Shown: positions 36,564 to 39,848 of the stretch, piece after piece
Position numbering within the stretch: position 1 is the first letter of the stretch
Layout: every line of letters starts with the position of its first letter
Assembly (NCBI GenBank): GCA_007695045.1
Contig: REEP01000044.1
Location: forward strand, 1-64,000
Length of the DNA stretch: 64,000 nucleotides
Reading direction: 5' to 3'
Source: Rhodospirillales bacterium
GTDB lineage: Bacteria; Pseudomonadota; Alphaproteobacteria; Rhodospirillales; Defluviicoccaceae
Notes under the pieces: generated by a model
Databases searched by the model: none
What the model was told of the DNA's origin: nothing
Seen by the model: the letters and a program-made list of their open reading frames with translations, nothing else
Made by a program: the position numbers and the translations under genes

Positions 36564-36935
36564 TCATTGCATCTCCTGAACGTACCGGGAAATCTGCTCC
36601 GCCACCTCGGGATCGGCCTGCGCCGCCTGGAAAATCTGGTTGTAGCGGTCGACGCTGAGACCTTCGTCCTCAACCGCTTCGACCATCTGGCCGGTTGCCT
36701 GCTCGCGTACCGCCTGGACTTCCTCAGGGGTCTCGGCCGCCTGGAGCTGCGGCTGAAACGTCTCGTTAATGCGTTGCACCTCGATGGCGGCAGCCGCATA
36801 GGAACGCAGTTCCTCCTCGGAGTAATTGGCCTCGACCGAGGCACCGTAGTCCTGCGCCATGGCCGGCACGGTACCGAGGCCGAGGGCGACCACAAGGGCC
36901 AGGATCGCGAGCATGATGTTACGGGGATAGGTCAT
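36564..36935 (-). CDS. DUF4168 exported protein
   Basis: A 123-residue protein with an N-terminal Sec signal (MTYPRNIMLAILALVVALGLG, cut after AMA at residue 26) followed by a small alpha-helical DUF4168 domain rich in Glu, Gln and Ala (YSEEELRSYAAAAIEVQRIN near residues 38-57, and the end VAEQISRYVQEM). The function is unknown. It is divergent from the sigma-factor gene across 283 bp, and 110 nt upstream of its ATG is a GGAACC-N17-GTCC element that could be read by the neighbouring ECF sigma factor. The domain call rests on pattern recognition and was not searched. Confidence 0.8.
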   Translation of the reverse strand: MTYPRNIMLAILALVVALGLGTVPAMAQDYGASVEANYSEEELRSYAAAAIEVQRINETFQPQLQAAETPEEVQAVREQATGQMVEAVEDEGLSVDRYNQIFQAAQADPEVAEQISRYVQEMQ

Positions 36936-37044: not shown

Positions 37045-37071
37045 GGACAGGACGAGCGCCAAGTCGGTTCC
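37045..37071 (-). promoter_or_regulatory. Candidate ECF sigma promoter facing the DUF4168 gene
   Basis: On the minus strand GGAACC (37071-37066) is followed by 17 bases and GTCC (37048-37045). The layout repeats that of the forward element at 37162-37188, and such GGAACC-spacer-GTC elements are typical of ECF-dependent promoters. It lies 110 nt upstream of the DUF4168 ATG. Confidence 0.5.
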
Positions 37072-37161
37072 ATTGCCGCACCCGGTTTTTCCAGTGTGTG
37101 GCGAAACCACCTCGAAATCGGCACATTGTCGCCGTATTTCCCAGGCCGGTTCGCTTTATTG

Positions 37162-37188
37162 GGAACCCGCAGCGGTCGAACGGTGTCT
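37162..37188 (+). promoter_or_regulatory. Candidate autoregulatory ECF sigma promoter
   Basis: GGAACC (37162-37167), 17 bases, then GTCT (37185-37188), ending 30 nt before the sigma-factor GTG. Many ECF sigma factors transcribe their own operon from such an element. The same motif with identical spacing faces the opposite way on the other side of the intergenic region. Confidence 0.55.
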
Positions 37189-37218: not shown

Positions 37219-37731
37219 GTGGACGACGTGAAGTGGTTGATGGCGCGGGAGATTCCGAGACTCAGGCGCTATGCCCTGGCTCTGATCAACGATCCGGAGC
37301 AGGCTGATGATCTGGTCCAGGACTGCCTGGAACGAGCGATCCGCAAGCGTCATCAATGGCGTCGTCACGGCAGCATCCGAAGCTGGCTTTATCGCATCCT
37401 CTATTCTGTGTTCGTGAATCAGAGCGCACGACGAAACCGCGACCGGCGCACTCTCACTCTGGAGCAGTCGCCCGCACTGCCGAGCGCTCCCGCCGCGCAG
37501 GAGCATCGGCTCGCCTGTCACGACATCGCCGAAGCGATGGCACGGCTGCCGGCGGAGCAGCGGGCTGCACTGGCGCTGACGGCCATCGAGGGTCTGGCTT
37601 ATGACGAAGCCGCCGGCGTGCTCGGCATCCCCATCGGCACCTTGCGCTCGCGGCTGGCGCGGGCGCGCGACACCTTGAGGACCCTGCATGAACCGCTTCC
37701 GCAATCCGCGGTGCTGCGGCGGGTGAAATGA
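37219..37731 (+). CDS. ECF-family RNA polymerase sigma factor
   Basis: A 170-residue sigma-70 family, extracytoplasmic-function type factor. Region 2 is at about residues 10-48 (RRYALALINDPEQADDLVQDCLERA), which contacts the -10, and region 4 near 110-155 (LPAEQRAALALTAIEGLAYDEAA then GTLRSRLARARDTLR), which contacts the -35. The GTG at 37219 is chosen because GGGAGGGG is just before it and the family N-terminus begins there. The anti-sigma gene starts one base after its stop, so the pair is coupled. Phyletic EcfG partners PhyR and NepR are not here. Confidence 0.92.
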   Translation: MDDVKWLMAREIPRLRRYALALINDPEQADDLVQDCLERAIRKRHQWRRHGSIRSWLYRILYSVFVNQSARRNRDRRTLTLEQSPALPSAPAAQEHRLACHDIAEAMARLPAEQRAALALTAIEGLAYDEAAGVLGIPIGTLRSRLARARDTLRTLHEPLPQSAVLRRVK

Positions 37732-38731: not shown

Positions 38732-38918
38732 GTGGTTGTACCGTGGCAGGTGCGTGCTTCCCGCCCTCCGCTGTGTGGTTGGCGGCGCTCACGGTCTTGC
38801 CGGGAACCGCCGCTGGTATTGGCCGTGGCCTGCCACCATGTCATCGAAGTCAGGGAAGGCAGGCTGTTCCCTGGGGCACGCTTGGTGAAGGACGGCCAGA
38901 CGGGAAAGGTAGACCCTC

Positions 38919-39848
38919 ATGACGCAAGCACCGGATGCCACCTTGCCGAAGCGGGTGACCATTTTCGGCGGTTCAGGCTTCATCGGCCGGCGCTTGGTGC
39001 AGCGTCTGGTGGAAGCGGGGACCACCGTCCGCATCGCCGACCGCCAGCCTGAACGCGTCCGGGATCGTCTGCCGCCGCACGTCGCCGATGGTCTGGAGAC
39101 GGCCGTGGCCGATGTGCGCGACCAGATCACCGTCGATGCCGCGGTCAGCGGCGCCGACGCAGTCATCAACCTCGTCGGTATCCTGTATGAAAAAGGAGAG
39201 CAGACATTCCAGGGCGTGCATGAGGAAGGTGCGGGCCGGGTGGCTGATGCCGCCGTGCGGGCGGGTGCCGGGCGCCTTCTTCACATGTCGGCCATCGGTG
39301 CCGATCCCGACTCCGCCGCCGCCTACGGTCGCAGCAAGGCCGCCGGGGAGGCCGCAGTGAAGCGAGCCTTGCCCACCGCCAGCATCGTCCGCCCGAGCAT
39401 CGTGTTCGGCCGGGAGGACGACTTCTTCAACAAATTCGCCAGTATGGCCTCGATCTCCCCGGCCCTGCCGCTGATCGGCGGCGGCCGTACCCGGTTCCAG
39501 CCGGTCTTTGTCGATGATGTGGCCGAAGCCTACGTCCGTATTCTCTCCGACCCATTGACGGCGGGAGAAACCTATGAGCTGGGTGGCCCCCAGGTATATA
39601 CGTTCCGCGAGTTGCTCGAACTCCTGCTTGCGCAGATGCGTGTCCGCCGCCTGCTCCTGCCGCTGCCGTTCGCCATTGCCGAGGTCGAAGCGTTCTTCTT
39701 CGAGAAGCTGCCTAAACCGCCCCTGACCCGGGACCAGGTGGCCTTGCTCCGCAGCGATAACGTGGTCAGCGGCCGCCACCCGACCCTGCAGACCCTCGGC
39801 ATCACCCCCACGCCGCTGGAAACCGTTCTTCCGACCTACATCCGCTGA
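38919..39848 (+). CDS. NDUFA9-like NAD(P)-binding SDR protein (complex I accessory type)
   Basis: A 309-residue atypical short-chain dehydrogenase/reductase, like the NDUFA9 accessory subunit of mitochondrial complex I, which many alphaproteobacteria share. Seen: the nucleotide-binding GGSGFIGRRLVQRL near residues 17-30, LVGILYEKG near 87, MSAIGADPDSAAAYGRSKAAGE with the Tyr-x-x-x-Lys near 127-148, and RPSIVFGREDDFFNKFA. It lies 147 bp before hslV on the same strand. A role in binding NADPH at complex I is by analogy; the nuo genes are not in the window. Confidence 0.92.
   Translation: MTQAPDATLPKRVTIFGGSGFIGRRLVQRLVEAGTTVRIADRQPERVRDRLPPHVADGLETAVADVRDQITVDAAVSGADAVINLVGILYEKGEQTFQGVHEEGAGRVADAAVRAGAGRLLHMSAIGADPDSAAAYGRSKAAGEAAVKRALPTASIVRPSIVFGREDDFFNKFASMASISPALPLIGGGRTRFQPVFVDDVAEAYVRILSDPLTAGETYELGGPQVYTFRELLELLLAQMRVRRLLLPLPFAIAEVEAFFFEKLPKPPLTRDQVALLRSDNVVSGRHPTLQTLGITPTPLETVLPTYIR

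Follow-up and report, generated by a model that had tools for sequence, protein, structure and literature searches.

The window, meaning the entire 64,000-nt stretch of DNA analysed here (genome G000), contains a DUF4168 gene that diverges from an ECF26-like sigma factor gene, with two promoter elements in the 283-bp region between them. Downstream of the sigma gene lie a gene for a putative membrane anti-sigma factor and a gene which we take to be NDUFA9-like. The features are as follows.

36564..36935, minus strand: DUF4168 gene, 123 aa
37046..37071, minus strand: ECF-type promoter element toward DUF4168, -35 GGAACC, -10 region TGTC, with the DUF4168 ATG (36935) 136 nt on
37162..37187, plus strand: ECF-type promoter element toward the sigma operon, -35 GGAACC, -10 region TGTC, with the sigma GTG (37219) 57 nt on
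37219..37731, plus strand: ECF26-like sigma factor gene, 170 aa
37733..38731, plus strand: putative membrane anti-sigma factor gene, 332 aa, beginning 1 nt past the sigma stop
38919..39848, plus strand: NAD-dependent epimerase gene, presumably NDUFA9-like (open reading frame; synteny and 80 % blastn identity with the congener G001)

The DUF4168 protein matched the entire PF13767 profile at 66.9 bits (cut-off 25.8), with a signal peptide recognized by eye and a helical mature part. A structural model built from two sequences, in which residues 1–35 had a pLDDT <50, showed four helices in the mature part at moderate confidence. Fold searches with the model returned nothing usable (best Foldseek E 0.67, best VIA-align Z 5.8), which does not imply a new fold, and the single PDB match by sequence (E 0.6) was not usable. 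The sigma factor was assigned to the ECF type in general on the basis of matches to regions 2 and 4 above the Pfam cut-offs (Sigma70_r2, 47.3 bits; Sigma70_r4_2, 55.5 bits), a length of 170 aa and no match to region 3; its GTG start is preceded by AGGGAGGGG. The putative anti-sigma factor has one hydrophobic segment (by eye) and a proline-rich C-terminal part. A Pfam profile search gave no match for this protein, and NCBIfam gave a weak one to a putative anti-sigmaE family (E 3.1e-8, under the cut-off); its homologues adjoin the sigma factors of other modules.

The first-pass annotation had described two GGAACC-N17-GTC elements on opposite strands, reading GTCT on the plus and GTCC on the minus strand, and both the positions and the letters were confirmed: the minus-strand element runs from 37071 to 37046 and is followed by C, and the plus-strand element runs from 37162 to 37187 and is followed by T. 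These are the only two exact matches in the window. A lone motif is not rare, since shuffled windows held a mean of 0.82 exact matches and at least two in 19 of 100. When the intergenic region was dinucleotide-shuffled 4000 times, the looser pattern GGAAC-N18-GT[CT] appeared on both strands in 7 cases, and the unusual feature is the outward-facing layout, not the motif itself. In both elements the -10 contains GT, as in ECF26 promoters, and the -35 is GGAACC rather than the ECF26 GGAATA; compared with the GGAAC and GTT of EcfG (ECF15) promoters, both have GGAAC and GTC. A further GGAACC, followed at promoter-like spacing by CGTG and by no GTC or GTT (by eye), lies at 38802–38827, 5′ of the NDUFA9-like gene.

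Recurrence of the arrangement and matched promoter variants

Searches of 317 genomes of the order and 385 of the class recovered DUF4168 in 24 and 34 of them, respectively. Among 54 DUF4168 loci, most of them viewed within ±1.5 kb, nine hold a sigma factor of the window's kind and 45 had no detected neighbouring sigma. In wider regions two of the 45 (G631 and G450, family f165) gained such a sigma, and there was a further locus, G519:C4, which was picked deliberately from the 12 places without loci in the class-wide search. In total, such a sigma accompanies DUF4168 at 12 loci: eight divergent, three on the same strand with the sigma upstream, and one with DUF4168 directly upstream of the sigma. 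Two of the three same-strand loci with the sigma upstream also contain a recognizable relative of the window's anti-sigma.

Outward-facing GGAAC-N18-GT[C/T] was present on both strands in all eight divergent loci (G000, G270, G271, G291, G149, G331, G474 and G519), which represent six families (f1, f30, f23, f46, f59 and f125); the genomes are few, and the three from f30 are near copies that were counted once. The pair thus recurs at the same place in other genera, among them distantly related alphaproteobacteria. In these loci GTC or GTT begins 23 nt from the first base of GGAAC, with identical spacing on both strands (offset 23). Shuffling of seven of the divergent intergenic regions, G519 being left aside, gave the outward pair in 0–7 of 4000 shuffles each. 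Comparison of 18 elements showed a variable spacer, T (14) or C (4) before GT, C after GT in 15 and T three bases further on in 15; the fixed letters belonged to the search pattern and hence prove nothing alone. The DUF4168 element of G149 lies approximately 76 nt from the next-upstream ATG (145 nt from a later start). In G519 an exported PRC-barrel gene (L308, 3250–3640) is located between the plus-strand promoter and the sigma gene, and elsewhere in G000 a GGAACC element accompanies a PRC-barrel gene (L090).

A tree of 85 sigma factors, from which 20 near-duplicates had been removed and to which four sequences had been added beforehand, placed the window-type sigmas in one nine-row clade with support 99/97, consisting of seven sigmas divergent to DUF4168 plus those of G126 and G034. 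A quick tree of 101 rows also recovered a nine-row clade (support 98); of the loci that a sigma search of 60 genomes returned, part went into the trees, with 15 in the quick tree. In G126 the sigma follows DUF4168, and no element matching the pattern was found before either gene. In G034 the sigma is not adjacent to DUF4168, which retains an offset-23 element, and no element was found within the contig upstream of the sigma. The rule that the clade goes with the element has one exception (G126) and one partial exception (G034).

In a further quick tree, which included Sinorhizobium meliloti RpoE6, that protein and the window sigma fall in different branches of one set. RpoE6 was taken from pSymA by profile, and its name rests on its location on pSymA according to PMC6180224 and on its being the only match in the 30 kb. 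The window sigma resembles ECF26 and is called here an ECF26-like variant; it was not filed as a canonical member because its -35 differs from GGAATA. Divergent GGAATA...CGTC pairs were also seen upstream of related sigmas, mostly from Pseudomonas, in L196, L199, L200, L207, L214, L215, L217, L220, L226, L228 and L229.

In all three genomes of family f165 (L304, L305 and L306 from G550, G631 and G450, respectively), where the sigma and DUF4168 genes lie on one strand, each of the two genes has a GGAATA-type element ahead of it, at offset 22. The sigmas of this family belong to a branch separate from the window clade in the 85-sigma tree, and GGAATA is the cross-species -35 consensus for ECF26 (PMC6180224). 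Two of the three f165 loci also have a GGAAC offset-23 match near the sigma start. G149 has GGAACTTT...CGTC at three places (L235, L247): ahead of the sigma gene, ahead of the divergent DUF4168 gene and ahead of a second, distant DUF4168 gene. The sigma and DUF4168 promoters thus vary together, the variants in f165 and G149 matching on both genes, and such joint variation is as would be expected if one sigma reads both.

Predicted circuit and role of DUF4168

With the elements, the genes, their conserved arrangement and the matched promoter variants as observed, it is very likely that the two elements are outward ECF-type promoters, with -35 GGAAC(C) and -10 (T/C)GT(C/T), both read by the adjacent ECF26-like sigma, and that DUF4168 is an envelope output. 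The membrane anti-sigma would hold the sigma until an envelope signal releases it, and the released sigma would amplify its own operon and concurrently turn on DUF4168, whose small exported helical product would act in the envelope as part of the response. The proposal in the first-pass annotation that an ECF sigma drives both its own operon and DUF4168 is for the most part backed at the level of comparative genomics, by the eight divergent loci in six families, the sigma clade and the matched promoter variants. The shuffling results, the conserved core positions of the elements in G001 and the anti-sigma homologues next to other sigmas also speak for it. Counted against this explanation are the small number of genomes, the near identity of the three from f30, the absence of genome-wide motif enrichment described below, G126, G034, the GGAAC offset-23 matches in f165 and, from the congener G001, the persistence of both elements independently of this sigma.

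In G001 the order of DUF4168 followed by the NDUFA9-like gene is as in the window, with only approximately 430 bp between them; the sigma and anti-sigma genes are missing from the locus, and DUF4168 and both elements are kept (C82:16227–16366, L070). The blastn match to the window covers 37046–37186, spanning both elements and the intervening DNA. Here the two genomes agree at 19 of the 20 core positions of the elements, compared with 65 of the 120 remaining positions between the elements (Fisher p = 2.4e-4). The element toward DUF4168 is GGAACC with offset 22, and that on the other strand is GGAACC...TGTT with offset 23. Loss of the sigma and anti-sigma genes in G001 is the simpler interpretation, because the divergent arrangement is common to other families. 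The retained elements are either read by another sigma, for which the one on contig C36 is the candidate, or recent relics.

The first-pass annotation had left DUF4168 as either an output or a sensor of the circuit. Of these the output role appears likelier, since DUF4168 mostly occurs without a detected neighbouring sigma and persists in G001, where its retention together with the elements in the absence of the sigma favours an output over a dedicated sensor. A feedback or sensing role would nevertheless be compatible with the explanation preferred here: DUF4168 could bind the periplasmic part of the anti-sigma and tune release of the sigma. CpxP and RseB are comparable partners in other systems. 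The conservation of the DUF4168 neighbourhood with sigma and anti-sigma in three arrangements is in keeping with such a role, as is an exported, helical protein. We regard it as rather unlikely, however, given the 45 of 54 loci without such a sigma nearby, the survival of DUF4168 without the pair in G001 and a protein model that matched no known partner fold usefully.

Other possible readers and the wider motif

The elements could also be real ECF promoters that are read here mainly by another GGAAC-reading sigma, either the paralogue on contig C91 of G000 or an EcfG-type general stress sigma. G001 keeps the pair of elements without a window-type sigma and has, on C36, the orthologue of C91 by gene order. 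Besides this orthologue, the searches of G001 turned up a single ECF sigma, on C78, which is the counterpart of C63 in G000 and adjoins a ChrR-type anti-sigma gene (read by eye). The EcfG motif, GGAAC-N17-20-GTT (PMC6599016), is also compatible with another reader. In a scan of 50 DUF4168 loci (L273–L276 set aside), 18 had GGAAC in the right orientation at offset 22 or 23, amounting to 19 elements versus two in the reversed control, and 11 of the 18 were among the 43 DUF4168 loci that have no divergent sigma. DUF4168 may thus be a target of other GGAAC-reading sigmas too, for example EcfG. For the window itself, a different main reader is improbable: the sigma and DUF4168 promoters vary jointly, the exact offset of 23 tracks the sigma clade, searches of G000 and G001 detected neither PhyR nor NepR, and the region upstream of the C91/C36 paralogue, which aligns poorly, yielded no facing element.

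NepR was found in none of five genomes including G000, the Caulobacter control being positive, and a PhyR sigma-like domain above the cut-off was present in G009 but in neither G000 nor G001. With NepR and PhyR not found, the window's genome was rejected as a candidate for a classical general stress system.

The genome-wide search for the spaced element that the first-pass annotation had proposed revealed no excess, with 29 exact matches versus 41 in the reversed control. The regulon is probably small, because the exact motif is not enriched. Related forms gave 33 versus 23 (G000) and 29 versus 17 (G001) for GGAACC-N15-16-TGTY, 79 versus 58 over six genomes for the offset-23 form, and 74 versus 46 (G000), 60 versus 44 (G001) and 54 versus 37 (G009, in which PhyR is present) for GGAAC-N16-17-CGTT. 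Enrichment was discarded as proof of a regulon, as no form of the motif separates a large regulon from background. When GGAACC-N15-16-TGTY and the exact pattern were pooled, 57 of 83 distinct sites lay inside genes, as called by a home-made codon score.

Some intergenic sites hint at a possible wider GGAACC regulon, as a suggestion only. GGAACC...TGTT elements before a WrbA-like and an MBL-fold gene are conserved between G000 and G001 (L078/L111, L122/L079) with diverged flanks. Elements present in one species only precede genes whose translations were read by eye as PRC-barrel, Hsp20-like, trehalose/glycogen-type enzyme and LigD proteins. It is conceivable, and in our judgement quite doubtful, that ECF26-like sigmas (that of the window and the C91 paralogue) took over a GGAAC-type general stress regulon in a genus in which PhyR and NepR were not found. 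The regulon would then take in the DUF4168, WrbA-like, MBL-fold, PRC-barrel, Hsp20 and trehalose-type genes, and the window pair would be its self-amplifying core, lost in one species where the promoters persist.

That the two matches arose by chance or serve a role other than as promoters is extremely improbable: at least two single matches occurred in 19 of 100 shuffled windows and the exact motif lacks a genome-wide excess, but the pair recurs in the same place in eight of eight divergent loci, arose in at most 7 of 4000 shuffles of any of the seven regions and shows selective conservation of its core positions in G001.

Significance and relation to known systems

In the 5.39 million papers searched, DUF4168 and PF13767 are not mentioned, and searches on ECF26, EcfG and PRC-barrel proteins turned up no link between DUF4168 and ECF sigmas; the link is added by the present analysis and was not found in print. 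A family absent from the searched literature thereby gains a candidate regulator and a testable proposal for its role, as an output of the envelope stress response, in an exported protein that matches the entire profile of Pfam family DUF4168 (PF13767) above its cut-off. The analysis also marks an ECF26-like clade whose promoters depart from the group consensus in -35 and spacing. Its matched pairs occur naturally (GGAACC at offset 23, GGAATA at offset 22); they may shed light on the evolution of ECF specificity and might find use as orthogonal switches.

EcfG (ECF15) resembles the present system in its -35 GGAAC, in a similar spacing (GGAAC-N17-20-GTT; PMC6599016) and in the types of some possible targets (PRC-barrel, GlgX-type). 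It differs in its -10 GTT, both window elements having GTC, and in its use of PhyR/NepR, which were not found here; the window sigma is accompanied by a putative membrane anti-sigma instead of NepR.

The ECF26 examples in PMC6180224 and PMC3511301 are S. meliloti RpoE1, E3, E4 and E6. In that group the sigma gene is followed by an anti-sigma with an N-terminal domain, a membrane segment and a periplasmic part, whereas the window has at this place a putative anti-sigma gene with a membrane segment seen by eye and a weak family match under the cut-off. The group further has autoregulation and, in some members, a divergent target, both of which are predicted for the window, and a -10 with GT, as in the window. 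It differs in its -35 GGAATA, the window having GGAACC with GT 23 nt from its start, and RpoE6 on pSymA lies on another branch than the window sigma. By analogy, the arrangement in the window would work in the manner of those ECF26 circuits that regulate themselves together with a divergent target.
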